Of a stretch of DNA of 64,000 nucleotides, positions 2,068 to 62,777 are shown one piece after another. This stretch comes from Aquisphaera giovannonii (GTDB taxonomy: Bacteria; Planctomycetota; Planctomycetia; Isosphaerales; Isosphaeraceae), in assembly GCF_008087625.1 (NCBI RefSeq), contig NZ_CP042997.1, positions 3,844,001 through 3,908,000 on the forward strand, written 5' to 3'. Position 1 is the stretch's first letter, and the number at the start of each line of letters is the position of its first letter. Both the position numbers and the translations under genes were made by a program. Below the pieces are notes generated by a model. The model searched no databases and had not been told where the DNA came from. It worked only from the letters and a program-made list of their open reading frames with translations.

Positions 2068-2167
2068 TCCGGTCGACCCGCAATCCCGCCGTGCCGGACG
2101 GGACGGGCGGCGGGGAGCCCGATCGCAATCGGCCGGGCGTTCTTGAGCCGCTCCTTTGAGGGGCACG

Positions 2168-2677
2168 CTAGCGGGACGGGCGGGCCCCGTGGATCCAGAG
2201 CTCTTCCAGGACCGAGTAGCCGCCGGGCCGCATCCCGAGGGCCTCGTAGGTCCGCTGGGCCTGGGCGTTGCCGTTCTCCACGTAAAGCCGCACGCCGATG
2301 ACGTCCGGCGCGGCGAGGGCTTCGGCGCGGAGGTGACGGAAGAGGGCCTTGAAGACGCCGCGGCCGCGATGATCGGCGTCGACGTAAACGCTCTGGAGCC
2401 ACCAGATCCAGCCGTCCCGCCAGTCGCTCCACTCCCGGGTGATCGCCGTCTGGCCGACGATCCGCGGGCCCTCCGGCATCGCCGCCTCCGCGACCCAGTA
2501 GCGGAGCCGGTCGGGCTCGGCCAGGGCGCGGGCCACCCCCCGGTCGAGGACCTCCGCGTCGAGCCGCTTGTGCTCGGTCTCGAGCGCGAGCCGGCGGTTG
2601 AACTCGACGATCACGGGGCGGTCGGCCGGCCTCGCATCGCGGACGATCAGCCCGGGGGCCGCGGGGTCGATGGTCAC
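2168..2677 (-). CDS. GNAT-family N-acetyltransferase
   Basis: A 169-residue protein with the GNAT core. QSVYVDADHRGRGVFKALF carries the acetyl-CoA-binding R-G-x-G loop, followed by LYVENGNAQAQRTYEALGM, the typical motif B end. The GTG start (2677-2675) overlaps the TGA stop of the rhomboid gene as GTGA, so the two are probably translationally coupled. Upstream reading in the same frame is antisense-like and does not resemble protein, which supports the GTG start. The acceptor substrate cannot be told from sequence; small-molecule amine or protein N-terminus are both possible. Confidence 0.88.
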   Translation of the reverse strand: MTIDPAAPGLIVRDARPADRPVIVEFNRRLALETEHKRLDAEVLDRGVARALAEPDRLRYWVAEAAMPEGPRIVGQTAITREWSDWRDGWIWWLQSVYVDADHRGRGVFKALFRHLRAEALAAPDVIGVRLYVENGNAQAQRTYEALGMRPGGYSVLEELWIHGARPSR

Positions 2678-3597
2678 AGCCGATCGCTCCGCTTGCTGCG
2701 GGCCCGACGGCTGGCCTCCTGGAGAATCCGGTTCTCCTCCTCGGTCAGGCCGGACCGGCCTTCGCGGGCGATCTTGGCGAGCACCTCGTCGAGGCGGGCG
2801 TCGAGCTGCTCCTCCGTGATGACCGCCGCGGAGGACGGCCTCGGCATGTGCCCTTCGCCCGACGACCGGGTCACGCCGGACGGCCGCGAGCGGGGCTGCT
2901 CGACGGGGACGGGCTTGACGATCCGGAGCCTGGGGCGTCGGAATCGCCCGCCCACCAGGCGGGACCATCGCAGGTCGAACTGCTTGAACGCGAAGGCGAA
3001 GGCCGCGCCGGCGAGGTGCGACTCGTAAGCGACGTCGCGGGACGGCTGGAAGAGGGGGAAGAAGAGGTAGATCGCCAGGGCCACCCACATGGGCATGGGC
3101 AGGATGAAGAAGAGCAGGATTTCGCGCCGCGGATAGTAGAGGGTGAAAAGGGTCACGACCGCCGTCACCGCGCCGGAGGCCCCGAGCATGGGCACGGAGC
3201 GCCCGCCCAACGGCCCCAGCTCGTGGATGGCCGCCCACGCGAGCGTGCTCACGCCGGCCGACGCGAGGTAGAAGGCCAGGAAGTCGCGGCCGCCCAGGAG
3301 CGATTCCATCTCGCGCCCGACGAACCAGAGGAAGAGCATGTTGAAGACGAGGTGCCAGATGTTGCCGTGGAGGAACGTCGCCGTCCAGAGCTCCCAGACC
3401 TTCCCCTGATGGAAGATCCCCTCGGGGGTGGCCATCAGCCAGTGGCGGACGAAATCCGACTCCTGGTTGAGCGACTGCGTGAGGAGGAACACCGCGCAGT
3501 TGATGACGATTAGGGTGTTGCACCACGGGGACACGCCGCCGAACCAGCCCGACCCTCCTCCCTCACCACGATAGTACTCGCGGTCATAGATACCCAT
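2674..3597 (-). CDS. Rhomboid-family intramembrane serine protease
   Basis: 307 residues with about six hydrophobic segments. The catalytic dyad is visible: Ser141 in LGASGAV and His194 in YESHLAGA. The HGNIWHLVFNMLFLWFVG helix (about 77-94) is the rhomboid signature, and the tail after residue ~215 is charged and cytosolic, with a predicted coiled segment. Rhomboids cut transmembrane helices within the lipid bilayer; the substrate here is unknown. The gene is followed immediately by the GNAT gene with a 4-base overlap. The ATG at 3597 gives a short hydrophilic N-terminus before the first membrane segment, as in related planctomycete proteins. Confidence 0.93.
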   Translation of the reverse strand: MGIYDREYYRGEGGGSGWFGGVSPWCNTLIVINCAVFLLTQSLNQESDFVRHWLMATPEGIFHQGKVWELWTATFLHGNIWHLVFNMLFLWFVGREMESLLGGRDFLAFYLASAGVSTLAWAAIHELGPLGGRSVPMLGASGAVTAVVTLFTLYYPRREILLFFILPMPMWVALAIYLFFPLFQPSRDVAYESHLAGAAFAFAFKQFDLRWSRLVGGRFRRPRLRIVKPVPVEQPRSRPSGVTRSSGEGHMPRPSSAAVITEEQLDARLDEVLAKIAREGRSGLTEEENRILQEASRRARSKRSDRL

Positions 3598-58124: not shown

Positions 58125-60560
58125 ATGGCGGCAAAGTCCATGACGGGGAGCGTTCCGGGGCGGCTCAACATCCTGGCCACGCTCGGGGTGGCGGGCGCCC
58201 TCACGGACGGTGAGCTCCTCCGGTTCTGCCTCGGCGGCGACGAGGCCGGAGCCCGCGCGGCCTTCACCGTCCTGGTGGAGCGGCACGGGCCGATGGTGCG
58301 GAAGGTCTGCCGCCAGGCCCTCGGCGACTCGCACGACGCGGACGATGCGTTCCAGGCCACGTTCCTCGTCCTGGTGCGGAAGGCCGATTCCGTCCGCAAG
58401 GCCGATTCCGTCGCGAGCTGGCTGCACGGCGTCGCCCTCCACGTCTGCCGGCGAGCAAGAGAGGTCGCGATCCGGCGACGGGACCACGAGCGGAAGGCGG
58501 CCGAGATGCGAGCCCTGGCGTACGACCACGAGACCGATCGGCCGGCGTCCTGGGCGGAGCTCCATGCGGAGATCGCCCGCCTCCCGCCGCGGTATCGGGA
58601 GCCGGTGGTGCTCTGCTACCTCGAAGGGCTGAGCACCGCGGCGGCCGCGCAACGGCTACGCTGCCCGCAGGGCACGATCCAGTCGAGGTTGTCGCGGGCC
58701 CGGGATCGGCTCCGAGAAAAGCTGAATCTCCGTGGGCTCGCCCCTGAGAGCGTCCTGATCAGCGAGGAGCCGCCTCGCAGCGCCGGAACGACGGCCATGC
58801 CCGGGGCCCTGCTCGGTGCGACGGTCGAGCTCGCAGTCCCCCACTTCGTCTCGTCGGCGGTCGCCACGGCGGTGCCCGCCTCGGTGTCCTCCCTGACGCA
58901 AGGAATGCTGGGAACCATGTACTGGCCGGATCTGAGGACGAGGGGCCTCGGCGGCCTCGCCATTGCCGCGGTGGCCGTGACCACCGGCGTGGCGGTCGCC
59001 TACCAGGATGAGATCGAGACTGGGGTCAATGCGTCGCAGGTGGCCACCGGGGGGGCAGCCAAATCCGCTCCCCCAGCTGTCCTCTTCGGCCCGCTGCCGC
59101 CTCGCGAGGAGCTGCACCGGCTGCTCCGCCAGGCCGCGAGCGAGGCGATCGCGATCGCCCGTGCGGAGCCCCAGACGTCATCCCGGTGCCTGACGACGAT
59201 CGCCAAGGTCCAGGCCCGTGCCGACGACCGCGATAGGGCTCGTTCCACGTTCGCCGAGGCCCTCAAGGAGGCCGAGGGGGGGTATGGCGGCGCGGTTGAC
59301 CCCTGGAACATCTGGAGGGTCGGCCACTACCAGGCCGAGGCCGGTTTCAAGGAGCAGGCTCTGGCAACGCTCCAACGGGCGGTGAAGGCGATGCCCGGCG
59401 TGTCGGGCGACTATGATGAGGGCAGCAGAACGATTCGCACTCTTGCCGCCGCCGTCCAGGAGCAATCGAGCATGGAGGCCCGGGAGGAGGCTCGCAAGAC
59501 GGCCGACGTGCTCATCCACTTCTCCGAGAAGTTCTTCGAGTCGAGCCCGATCGCCGACTCGCGCGACTGGAGCGCCCCAGAGGTGGCCTCGGCGCTTGCG
59601 GGCGTGGGAGACTTCGACGCCGCGTTCCGATGGTCCCAAGGCGTCGAGTCCGGTGGCCATGTCCTCGGTGCGATCGCCCTGGCCGCGTCCAAGTCCCTCG
59701 ACCGGGAGGCGGCCCGCCCGTTCGTCCGAGAGGCGGCCGAGCGGCTCGGGAAGCTCAGGTGGGCCGACGAGACGAACATAGGCCTCAGCGATCTGGCGGA
59801 GGCTGAGGCTCGGATCGGCGAGCTGGACGCCGCAAGGCGCTCGGTCGACGCGATCGGCGAGGGGCCGTCCCGCGTGAAGGATGATTTGACGGACGGACGG
59901 CCATACGCCTTCCTCCGCATCGCCGCCGTGCAGCATCATGCGGGCGACATGGCCGGGGCGAAGGCCACGTTGCGCACCGCGTTCCGCTTCGTGATGGACC
60001 ATCCTCGGATGAGGAGGCGAGACGACTGTTACCTTCAGATCGCGGGTGCGCAACTGCGCTATGGCGACATCGCGTTCGCGACGAGGTCGATCGCCGCCAT
60101 GCACAATCGACGATGCGAGATTCTCGCATCGCTCGCCCTGGCGCAGGCCGCGGGCGGTGACGATGCCACCGCGCGTGTCACGTTTGCGAATGCCCTGGCA
60201 GCGGCCGGCCTGTCGGCCAAGCAACCGCCCAGCCCGGCCCCGGATGTCGTCGGTGATGCCGAGGGCAACCCGAACTTGTCGGCAGCGGAAAGGGGGGAGC
60301 TCGCCAGAATTCAGGCGATGGCCGGGGATTGCTCCGGTGCCCTCTCTACCGTCCGCACGATCGATGATCGCCTCTACAAAGCGTTCGCGTTGGAGCAAGT
60401 CGTCTCGGCGCGGGCGGCTGCCGGCGATGTGGCGGCGGCCATGCGGCTAGGGCTCGACGAGGCAAAGACACCGGACGAGCGGCGGTCAGCCTTGGAGGGC
60501 CTGGCGGCCGGGCTCGACGTCCGGCTATCGCTCCCGTCGCCCAGGGCTCGCGGCGAGTAA
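58125..60560 (+). CDS. ECF RNA polymerase sigma factor with long helical, membrane-spanning C-terminal domain
   Basis: 811 residues. Sigma region 2 (about 45-125: FTVLVERHGPMVRKVCRQAL, DAFQATFLVLVRKAD) and complete region 4 (about 150-205: LPPRYREPVVLCYLEGLST followed by RCPQGTIQSRLSRAR). One transmembrane helix follows (about 280-300), then ~500 residues of degenerate TPR/SEL1-like helical repeats (EARKTADVLIHFSEKFFE, AEARIGELDAARRSVDAIG, ALEQVVSARAAAGDVAAAM). The fused membrane anchor implies sensing on the other side of the membrane and control of the sigma domain, as proposed for such planctomycete proteins. No separate anti-sigma gene is adjacent. Contains a short repeated segment (VRKADSVRKADSV). 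Confidence 0.9.
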   Translation: MAAKSMTGSVPGRLNILATLGVAGALTDGELLRFCLGGDEAGARAAFTVLVERHGPMVRKVCRQALGDSHDADDAFQATFLVLVRKADSVRKADSVASWLHGVALHVCRRAREVAIRRRDHERKAAEMRALAYDHETDRPASWAELHAEIARLPPRYREPVVLCYLEGLSTAAAAQRLRCPQGTIQSRLSRARDRLREKLNLRGLAPESVLISEEPPRSAGTTAMPGALLGATVELAVPHFVSSAVATAVPASVSSLTQGMLGTMYWPDLRTRGLGGLAIAAVAVTTGVAVAYQDEIETGVNASQVATGGAAKSAPPAVLFGPLPPREELHRLLRQAASEAIAIARAEPQTSSRCLTTIAKVQARADDRDRARSTFAEALKEAEGGYGGAVDPWNIWRVGHYQAEAGFKEQALATLQRAVKAMPGVSGDYDEGSRTIRTLAAAVQEQSSMEAREEARKTADVLIHFSEKFFESSPIADSRDWSAPEVASALAGVGDFDAAFRWSQGVESGGHVLGAIALAASKSLDREAARPFVREAAERLGKLRWADETNIGLSDLAEAEARIGELDAARRSVDAIGEGPSRVKDDLTDGRPYAFLRIAAVQHHAGDMAGAKATLRTAFRFVMDHPRMRRRDDCYLQIAGAQLRYGDIAFATRSIAAMHNRRCEILASLALAQAAGGDDATARVTFANALAAAGLSAKQPPSPAPDVVGDAEGNPNLSAAERGELARIQAMAGDCSGALSTVRTIDDRLYKAFALEQVVSARAAAGDVAAAMRLGLDEAKTPDERRSALEGLAAGLDVRLSLPSPRARGE

Positions 60561-60566
60561 CACGCG

Positions 60567-61487
60567 TCAGGCCAGGGCGTCGGCGCGGAGTCCGCCCCAG
60601 TTCAGTGCGGGATGCTCGCCGGGCGTCTCGCCGTCTCGCCCAACGCCGATGGCGACGAGCGCCCGGTGGACCTCGTCGATCGTCCGGTCGAGCGTCGAGG
60701 TCCCGGCGGTCAGCCCCACGGTCGCGAAGCCGAGGAGCCAGTCCCGATCCAGTTCCTCCGCCGAGGTGACCTGCCTGGCGGGGCGGCCTCGCCGACGGCA
60801 GAGATCGACGAGCTGGCGCGTGTTGTTCGACGATCGGCCGCCGACGACCACCACGGCATCGACCACGCCGAGGAGCCCTTCGAGCGCCCGCTGGTGCTCC
60901 TTCGTCGGCTGGCAGACGGTGTCCACGAAGCGGACCTCGGCGTCGGGATTGCGCTCGGCGACGAGCGTCCGAAGCTCGCGGACGAGCGATTCCGGGGCCG
61001 TCGTCTGGCAGACGAGGCCGAGCCTCGGGACGCCGAAGTCGCGGACATCGGCCGGGGTCTCGATCACGTCCACCCGCTCCAGGTCCTCGACGACGCCGTT
61101 CACCTCGACGTGCCCCTTCCGGCCCACGAGCAGCACGTGATAGCCTTCGCCGTGGAGCATCCGGGCCGCGTTGTGGACGCGGAGAACCAGCGGGCACGTC
61201 GTGTCGATGAGCGTGTTCCCTGCCGCCTCAAGGCGTCGCCGCTCCCGGTCCGAGATGCCGTGCGCCGTGATCAGGACCCGGCGGGCCTCCGGCACGTCGC
61301 CCCCGGCCCGTTCCGCCTCCGGCCGCATCGCGAAGCCCCGGCGATCCAGGTCGGCCAGCACCACCTCATTGTGCACGAGCTCACCGTGGATGAGCACCCC
61401 GTGCAGGTCGCCGATCCGCTCCACCACCTTCAGGGCGTCGCGCACGCCAAAGCACATACCCAGCACCTCCGCCCGGATCACACGCAT
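60567..61487 (-). CDS. ispH: 4-hydroxy-3-methylbut-2-enyl diphosphate reductase
   Basis: 306 residues. Last enzyme of the MEP isoprenoid pathway: reduces HMBPP to isopentenyl and dimethylallyl diphosphate with a [4Fe-4S] cluster held by Cys12, Cys98 and Cys192. Substrate-binding motifs are HGELVHN, HGISDRE, GHVEVNG and SSNNTRQL, with TAGTSTL near the C-terminus. A near-perfect Shine-Dalgarno GGAGGTGA lies 5 bases before the ATG. Three copies of a palindromic operator and a possible promoter lie 60-140 bp upstream, suggesting control by the neighbouring winged-helix regulator. Confidence 0.96.
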   Translation of the reverse strand: MRVIRAEVLGMCFGVRDALKVVERIGDLHGVLIHGELVHNEVVLADLDRRGFAMRPEAERAGGDVPEARRVLITAHGISDRERRRLEAAGNTLIDTTCPLVLRVHNAARMLHGEGYHVLLVGRKGHVEVNGVVEDLERVDVIETPADVRDFGVPRLGLVCQTTAPESLVRELRTLVAERNPDAEVRFVDTVCQPTKEHQRALEGLLGVVDAVVVVGGRSSNNTRQLVDLCRRRGRPARQVTSAEELDRDWLLGFATVGLTAGTSTLDRTIDEVHRALVAIGVGRDGETPGEHPALNWGGLRADALA

Positions 61488-61545: not shown

Positions 61546-61560
61546 CTTTACAGTACAAAG
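61546..61560. promoter_or_regulatory. Operator copy 1 (upstream of ispH)
   Basis: CTTTACAGTACAAAG. CTTT and AAAG arms around a 7-base centre. Starts exactly 33 bp before copy 2. Overlaps the candidate -10 of ispH. Confidence 0.6.
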
Positions 61561-61586
61561 TATCCGACCGCGCCTAAGCTTTGCAA
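61557..61586 (-). promoter_or_regulatory. Possible ispH promoter
   Basis: On the minus strand TTGCAA - 18 bp - TACTTT, about 70 bp before the ispH ATG. Both hexamers lie within operator copies, so a bound regulator would block it. Spacing is one base longer than ideal. Confidence 0.35.
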
Positions 61587-61595
61587 CACAAAGCT
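61577..61595. promoter_or_regulatory. Operator copy 2 (upstream of ispH)
   Basis: AGCTTTGCAACACAAAGCT, seven-base perfect arms with a 5-base centre, the best palindrome of the set. Confidence 0.65.
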
Positions 61596-61611
61596 GACAT
61601 CCCGCGTTTAA

Positions 61612-61626
61612 CTTTGCGACACAAAG
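61612..61626. promoter_or_regulatory. Operator copy 3 (upstream of ispH)
   Basis: CTTTGCGACACAAAG, differing from copy 2 by one base in the core. Starts exactly 33 bp after copy 2, about three helical turns. Confidence 0.65.
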
Positions 61627-61674
61627 CTACCAGGCAAGAGGACGAGGCCGCGGGCCGCCGCCGGGCCGGCGTCC

Positions 61675-62094
61675 TCAGACGGGCGACCAGCCCTCGGCGA
61701 GGCCGGAGCCGGGCGCGGGGCGGGCGGCGGCGTGGAGGGCGTCGTGGACGACGGACTCGAGGACGGAGATATACTCGAGGAAGCGGCGGCGGCCCTCGTC
61801 GGTGACGCGGCAGAGGGTCTGCGGCCGGTTCTTGTGGAAGCCCTTCCAGATCTCGACGAAGCCGGCCTCGTGGAGCACGCCCAGGTGGCGGCTGAGGTTG
61901 CCGTCGGTGAGGTGGCAGAGCTCCTTGAGGTCGGAGAAGATCACGCCGCGGGGGTTGGTCACCAGCGAGGTCATGATGCCCAGCCGCGCCTTCTCGTGGA
62001 AGATGCGCTCCAGGCCCTCGTAGGCGAAGCGGCCGTTCTGCTCGTCGGCCGGCTGTGCGGGCGCGGGCGTGGGGGAGGCTGTCTTACGAGGCAT
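61675..62094 (-). CDS. Winged-helix transcriptional regulator (HTH_34/ArsR-like)
   Basis: 139 residues. One winged-helix domain (about 25-110): KARLGIMTSLVTNPRGVIFSDLKELC, TDGNLSRHLGVLHEAGFVEI (recognition helix) and the wing KNRPQTLCRVTDEG. It belongs to the HTH_34-type, marker-regulator-like group. The ATG at 62094 overlaps the stop of the membrane-protein gene by 11 bases, so the two are one operon. Four matching palindromes around the operon and upstream of ispH are its probable targets. No ligand-binding domain is seen; the sensed signal may come from the membrane partner. Confidence 0.88.
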   Translation of the reverse strand: MPRKTASPTPAPAQPADEQNGRFAYEGLERIFHEKARLGIMTSLVTNPRGVIFSDLKELCHLTDGNLSRHLGVLHEAGFVEIWKGFHKNRPQTLCRVTDEGRRRFLEYISVLESVVHDALHAAARPAPGSGLAEGWSPV

Positions 62095-62695
62095 GGGCGC
62101 GCTCCAGGGTCCGGTAGAGCACGGCGGCGGCGAGGAGCTGGCCGGCGCCGAAGGGGAAGCCCATCGCCCAGGGGCTGAGGGCATGCTCGCCGCGGGCCAG
62201 GCCGAGGACGGCCAGCCCGCAGAGCATGTAGAAGGCGGCCACGATGGCGGTCGGCCGCGGGAGCAGGCGGCAGGAGGCGAAGATCCCGAGGCTGTAGAGC
62301 ACCTGCCAGATCCCGGGCAGGATCCACGCCGCCTCCGGCGCCGAGCGGGCGATCACGACCGTCAGCAGCGAGCCGGCCACCAGGCACGGGCAGAACTGCT
62401 CGATGGCCAGGTGCGTCAGCTCGCGGGTCAGGGGCGAGCCGGAGTTCCTGGCACGGACGAGCATCTCGAACGCCGCGGACGCGCCGCTGACCACCGCCGC
62501 CCCGATCCAGAGTGCCAGGTACGCGGGCAATTGCTGCGTCGGGTCGGTCAGGAAGGCCGACTGGATCCACCCCGCGCCGATCGCCACCAGCCCGGAGAAC
62601 GCCGCCGGCACGGCCCGATAGCCCCGGAAGACCTCCGTGCGCGCCATCTGCTGGCGGATTTCCGTGATCTGCGTCAGGGCCTCGTGCAATTCCAT
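62084..62695 (-). CDS. Six-helix membrane protein paired with winged-helix regulator
   Basis: 203 residues with about six hydrophobic segments (AAFSGLVAIGAGWIQSAF, AYLALWIGAAVVSGASAAFEM, FCPCLVAGSLLTVVIA, GIWQVLYSLGIFASCRLL, AIVAAFYMLCGLAVLGLA, GFPFGAGQLLAAAVLY). A short cytosolic N-terminus precedes them. TAGGAG lies before the ATG. Its gene is first in the operon, ahead of the regulator. No enzyme family is recognised; it may sense a signal for the regulator, which is inference from the pairing. Confidence 0.78.
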   Translation of the reverse strand: MELHEALTQITEIRQQMARTEVFRGYRAVPAAFSGLVAIGAGWIQSAFLTDPTQQLPAYLALWIGAAVVSGASAAFEMLVRARNSGSPLTRELTHLAIEQFCPCLVAGSLLTVVIARSAPEAAWILPGIWQVLYSLGIFASCRLLPRPTAIVAAFYMLCGLAVLGLARGEHALSPWAMGFPFGAGQLLAAAVLYRTLERAHAS

Positions 62696-62742
62696 GGGCT
62701 CTCCTACCGGATGCTCGCCCGGGAGCGGACGTCGCGCCTTCG

Positions 62743-62757
62743 CTTTGCATCGTAAAG
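62743..62757. promoter_or_regulatory. Operator copy 4, in the regulator operon promoter
   Basis: CTTTGCATCGTAAAG. The arms and RC/RY positions fit the other copies. Covers the whole -10 element of the operon promoter, so binding would repress it. Confidence 0.65.
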
Positions 62758-62777
62758 CCAGGCAACGGGGATGTCAA
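62749..62777 (-). promoter_or_regulatory. Promoter of the membrane protein/regulator operon
   Basis: On the minus strand TTGACA - 17 bp - TACGAT, predicted start near 62742, about 47 bases before the ATG at 62695. The -35 is a perfect match to consensus. Confidence 0.7.

Follow-up and report, generated by a model that had tools for sequence, protein, structure and literature searches.

A palindrome conserved in Planctomycetota links an HTH_34 regulator/membrane protein operon and an accessory ispH gene to a candidate isoprenoid regulon

In Bacillus subtilis, the ArsR-like autorepressor SdpR is encoded with a membrane protein, SdpI, that controls the repressor by holding it at the membrane; SdpI confers immunity and belongs to a named Pfam family, and we take this pair as a lead only. 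CrtR, a MarR-type protein of Corynebacterium glutamicum and other actinobacteria, is an autorepressor of isoprenoid and carotenoid genes that responds to geranylgeranyl diphosphate (GGPP) and has a short conserved motif (PMC5401885, PMC7432914). Mycobacterium tuberculosis has two IspH homologues, LytB1 and LytB2 (PMC4550268). Here we analyze a 64-kb stretch of the 10.5-Mb Aquisphaera giovannonii genome (the window; C1:3844001-3908000) in which the palindrome CTTTRC-N3-RYAAAG occurs at an operon encoding a membrane protein and an HTH_34 winged-helix regulator and upstream of ispH2, a gene for an IspH paralogue. We consider it probable, judging from the sequence and its conservation, that these palindromes are the operators of the HTH_34 regulator in an autorepressor-centered and probably membrane-coupled isoprenoid regulon. 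In the literature searched, which left most subscription journals outside its coverage, queries on HTH_34/membrane protein pairs, planctomycete regulons, and ispH regulators gave no earlier description of this regulon; nor did we find there a dedicated transcriptional regulator of the precursor genes of the methylerythritol phosphate pathway.

The window contains four exact matches to the palindrome (Table 1), as it does to the broader form CTTTRY-N3-RYAAAG, and no further copy was found in the 64 kb when one mismatch was allowed. After shuffling of the window, 0.14 matches were expected and none of 100 shuffles reached 8. Across the whole genome there were 13 sites at 7 places; the reversed pattern, searched as a control over the same 10.5 Mb, gave 0 sites. 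Thus, the original prediction, which had reported four palindromes in 1.2 kb and none elsewhere in the window and had relied on there not being many unrelated copies in the genome, held on both counts. One of the genomic sites, near G000:4504913, falls within a GH32 gene and might be a background match.

The three sites on the ispH2 side were said to be spaced at exactly 33 bp and evenly phased on one face of the DNA. The spacing, measured from start to start, was verified. The phasing is only approximate, as 33 bp corresponds to 3.14 helical turns, but paired sites at other places also have spacings of mostly 22 to 27 or 33 to 35 bp; these recurrent spacings are compatible with cooperative binding, of which they are no proof. 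Among the genomes seen, the triple array is peculiar to A. giovannonii, and its congeners and most relatives have one site before ispH2. We considered a tandem duplication as the source of the array and rejected it, because the spacers between 61546, 61579, and 61612 had no clear likeness by eye. The region had no Rfam match to a structured RNA.

Read along the minus strand, the order is membrane protein, regulator, three-site region, and ispH2. As predicted, the regulator is paired with a six-helix membrane protein in one operon, in which the two genes overlap, and a TTGACA-17-TACGAT promoter was found before them on the minus strand (62777..62749), its −10 hexamer covered by operator 1. The regulator scored 78.6 bits for HTH_34 (PF13601; cutoff, 27) over residues 37 to 116; its score of 18.4 bits for the MarR domain PF12802 is under the cutoff of 27, and thus it failed the MarR domain test. 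It is the one strong HTH_34 gene product of the genome. The membrane protein had no family match in Pfam or NCBIfam. Its structural model (predicted local distance difference test [pLDDT] score, 85) has an N-terminal helix followed by six further long helices; a fold search gave no match at an E value below 0.7, and no relative of solved structure was found. Its closest named relative is from A. insulae (85%).

Conservation of the sites was followed in a family set of 45 genomes, 32 of which have the regulator, and in 80 named loci carrying the membrane protein/regulator pair. The named loci come from Planctomycetota plus a few Acidobacteria-labeled and other assemblies, some of which may be misbinned; because the membrane protein was the query in this search, regulators without it were not counted. 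In the family, the site before the membrane protein/regulator operon was perfect in 26 of the 32 genomes. It is mostly of the form CTTTAC-N3, which creates a TACNAT −10 behind TTGAC. Before ispH2, a site with at most one mismatch was present in 16 of 18 genomes. Among the named loci, 61/80 had a perfect site before the membrane gene, against a background of 1 match in 622 kb of flanking DNA; 39/80 had another perfect site some 1.1 kb downstream, and 42/80 had ispH2. The regulator lay about 600 nt behind the start of the membrane gene in 80/80. Pirellulaceae and Acidobacteria genomes that were searched whole had few sites, mainly at the module. The palindromes are thus conserved, as predicted, in relatives that keep the regulator, and because of these counts we regard as recurrent the arrangement in which the regulator operon and ispH are each preceded by one predicted operator. 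A candidate operator over the regulator's own promoter, conserved together with the regulator, points to an autoregulated regulon. In many relatives, T-runs lie directly upstream of the operator and may be the terminator of the regulator gene. Four loci of the Pirellulaceae type (L268, L269, L270, and L285) have an extra short gene that separates the operator from the membrane gene and places the site about 640 nt upstream; in L289 the site is at the same distance from the membrane gene.

The ispH gene of the window is a second paralogue, distinct from the housekeeping gene. An ispH gene of some kind was present in 44/45 family genomes and ispH2 in 18/45; ispH2 adjoins the regulator gene in 17/18 (the regulator was undetected in G023). 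The ispH2 products are 56 to 75% identical among relatives and 33% identical to the housekeeping IspH1. The window protein scored 220.5 bits for TIGR00216 (cutoff, 187.85). The catalytic residues tested (three cluster cysteines, H41, H74, H124, E126, T167, S225, N227, and S269) are conserved in 71 IspH2 sequences, except that T167 is replaced by S in 11/71; a change of S226 to N, found in 68/71, is a signature of the group. By its equivalog score and these residues, IspH2 is an IspH (LytB) enzyme, a predicted 4-hydroxy-3-methylbut-2-enyl diphosphate reductase. The housekeeping ispH of A. giovannonii (L240; G000:C1:6539465-6540289), 33% identical to the window gene, has no operator upstream, nor was one found before housekeeping ispH in any of the 13 genomes checked; control of that gene by the regulon was ruled out on this count (0/13). 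The original prediction tied the sites to control of the last step of isoprenoid synthesis. The link to ispH stands, in that the site before ispH2 is conserved, but because the gene is an accessory paralogue, control of the sole last step of the pathway does not.

The idea of an ispH-linked regulon was kept at its core, but the regulon appears to be wider, including ispA-dxs, two membrane protein families, a radical-SAM gene, and others. Two gene sets were located by protein search, independently of the motif. The first, ispA (farnesyl diphosphate synthase)-dxs, had an operator that keeps phase with the conserved promoter TGTGGACA-N18-(C/A)ACAAT in 21/32 genomes with the regulator and in 2/11 genomes in which no regulator was detected (Fisher P, 0.012, uncorrected for kinship); the core promoter is retained in genomes that have neither operator nor regulator. 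With its center near −61, some 25 bp upstream of the −35, the operator has a position that suggests activation. In L019, the ispA-dxs operon (2116-3135, minus strand) has its site at 3205, at the fixed distance from the family-conserved promoter. The second set, a pair of uncharacterized membrane proteins without a match in Pfam, is present in 22/45 genomes, namely, 20 with the regulator and the drafts G008 and G018; an operator lies 12 to 76 bp upstream in 21 of the 22. An example is L018:2352-3191 (minus strand), with relatives in L372-L393; one member (cluster A) gave a model with a pLDDT score of 66 and was left out of the fold search. Further targets came to light by way of the motif, which makes them a biased sample: an ABC-2 permease-like gene in 13 family genomes, a B12/radical-SAM gene (HpnJ/BchE-like, below family cutoffs) in 5, and purA-uppS, near a site in three. 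In L014:1557-3074 (minus strand), the B12/radical-SAM gene has two operators 22 bp apart; in other planctomycetes, relatives of this gene take the third place in the module. The A. giovannonii genome has additional sites before a VanZ-like gene and a gene for a 75-residue membrane protein.

In lineages beyond the family, a third gene that carries a site of its own is often isoprenoid or lipid related. At loci without ispH2, the product of the gene behind the regulator is, for example, a member of the same radical-SAM family, a geranylgeranyl-reductase-family protein, a lycopene-cyclase/DAGK-like protein with DUF4153, or a member of the family of the uncharacterized membrane protein pair. In L271 this gene is a β-lactamase/DD-peptidase-like gene, with a homologue at the same place in L309. 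In L318 (7004-9394), from a metagenome-assembled genome labeled Xanthobacteraceae, uppS occupies the third place, and a gene for a BchE-like radical-SAM protein comes after it. What the third genes have in common is a tie to isoprenoids and to lipids of the membrane or envelope.

The positions, conservation, and gene linkage of the sites define a candidate regulon, from which we infer the following mechanism. The HTH_34 regulator, probably a dimer, would bind CTTTRY-N3-RYAAAG and repress its own operon by covering the −10. It would probably also repress the accessory ispH2 and other genes whose start codon is no more than about 60 bp from a site, and in the Isosphaeraceae it may activate the farnesyl-diphosphate-synthase-dxs promoter from the fixed site near −61. 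The cotranscribed six-helix membrane protein most likely sets the activity of the regulator by holding or releasing it, and the signal to the membrane protein would be the state of the membrane's isoprenoid or polyprenyl lipids. We put forward more tentatively a general form of this proposal: that a membrane sensor of isoprenoid/polyprenyl-lipid state and a dedicated transcription factor form a module common to Planctomycetota and some Acidobacteria, repressing some isoprenoid genes and activating farnesyl-diphosphate-synthase-dxs; a second, regulated IspH would be the signature target of this module.

Several observations weigh against this interpretation. Two drafts in which no regulator was detected (G008 and G015) retain the ispA site, and G040, G043, and G044 carry the regulator and have no ispA site. 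The β-lactamase-like, ABC-2 permease, and VanZ-like targets are envelope genes and not strictly isoprenoid genes. At ispA and ispH2, the sign proposed for the operator is read from geometry. In the window, a candidate promoter had been thought to overlap the three ispH2-side sites, but a scan found no sigma-70-like promoter under them; a scan for a terminator signal there was also negative.

An account closer to CrtR is possible, although we doubt it: the regulator would be a soluble metabolite-sensing repressor with an isoprenyl diphosphate ligand, and the membrane protein would be no more than one of its targets, such as an enzyme or a transporter of lipids. CrtR acts as a repressor of the crt operon as well as of its own gene, and GGPP and other isoprenyl diphosphates free it from DNA (PMC5401885, PMC7432914); the logic of autorepression plus isoprenoid genes is the same here. 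However, the membrane gene is the first of the operon, overlaps the regulator gene in the window, and is followed by it at every named locus (all found by way of the membrane protein), which fits a signaling pair at least as well; moreover, the regulator has little protein outside its winged helix.

We think it somewhat unlikely that the system responds to stress on the envelope or on lipid carriers (undecaprenyl phosphate or lipid II) and not to the isoprenoid level itself, with ispH2, uppS, and ispA as targets because lipid carriers are isoprenoids. The uppS operons near sites in three family genomes and the uppS gene of L318 are consistent with such a response, as are the β-lactamase/DD-peptidase-like genes of L271 and L309 and the VanZ-like and ABC-2 permease targets, but the geranylgeranyl-reductase and lycopene-cyclase-like third genes indicate other end products.

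Quite unlikely, in our judgment, is that the regulator senses oxygen or oxidants and brings IspH2 into use upon failure of IspH1, an oxygen-sensitive [4Fe-4S] enzyme. A cysteine beside the recognition helix, in LKxLCxLTDGNLSRH, is present in 98/99 parsed regulators (19 more had no parsed motif) and could be a lead for redox sensing; in the window regulator it is Cys60. The oxygen sensitivity of IspH and its [4Fe-4S] cluster are on record (PMC8837944). Nevertheless, all three cluster cysteines are kept in 70 or 71 of 71 IspH2 sequences, so that IspH2 should be oxygen sensitive too, and about half of the loci have no ispH2. Finally, isolated sites in some relatives are partly background, with reversed-control counts as high as the site counts, but it is highly improbable that the palindromes are chance matches or sites of another DNA-binding protein, because they are conserved in position at independently identified gene sets and co-occur with the regulator, and a chance origin was ruled out by the window shuffles, the genome-wide reversed control, and the named-locus background count.

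Features of the locus are collected in Table 1. Beyond ispH2, at 58125-60560 on the plus strand, the window encodes an 811-residue protein whose N-terminal part resembles, by eye, an extracytoplasmic function sigma factor and is followed by a long extension.

TABLE 1 Coordinates in the window of the predicted operators, promoter elements, and genes
Feature	Position	Strand	Remarks
Predicted operator 1	62743..62757		CTTTGCATCGTAAAG on +, CTTTACGATGCAAAG on −; over −10 of membrane protein/regulator operon
Predicted operator 2	61612..61626		Upstream of ispH2
Predicted operator 3	61579..61593		33 bp beyond operator 2
Predicted operator 4	61546..61560		33 bp beyond operator 3
−35 hexamer TTGACA, operon promoter	62772..62777	−	TTGAC kept in relatives at same distance from operator
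−10 hexamer TACGAT	62749..62754	−	Inside operator 1
Membrane protein, 203 residues	62084..62695	−	N-terminal amphipathic helix and six transmembrane helices
HTH_34 (PF13601) winged-helix regulator, 139 residues	61675..62094	−	11-bp overlap with membrane gene
ispH2, accessory 4-hydroxy-3-methylbut-2-enyl diphosphate reductase paralogue	60567..61487	−	Catalytic residues kept

Because the operator, regulator, membrane partner, and target list recur across the phylum, the proposed system is directly testable. Such a regulon would explain the second IspH of many planctomycetes and would name functional partners for several uncharacterized membrane protein families. If the membrane protein is a sensor, it would offer a model of isoprenoid-lipid sensing in bacteria, and the system might find use in isoprenoid production, as a biosensor or a point of control.

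CrtR is the nearest described system: both regulators are winged-helix proteins with isoprenoid genes and a short motif, CrtR being an autorepressor and the HTH_34 protein a predicted one. Unlike CrtR, the regulator described here belongs to HTH_34, is paired with a six-helix membrane protein, and has its sites before precursor-supply genes (ispH2 and ispA-dxs). The membrane protein differs from SdpI in having no match to any Pfam family (an SdpI-type domain was looked for and not found), and the predicted targets differ from those of SdpR/SdpI in being isoprenoid genes. As with LytB1 and LytB2, the genome has two IspH homologues; IspH2, however, forms a separate group that is 33% identical to IspH1, carries the S226-to-N change, is nearly always encoded beside the regulator pair, and has its own predicted operator.
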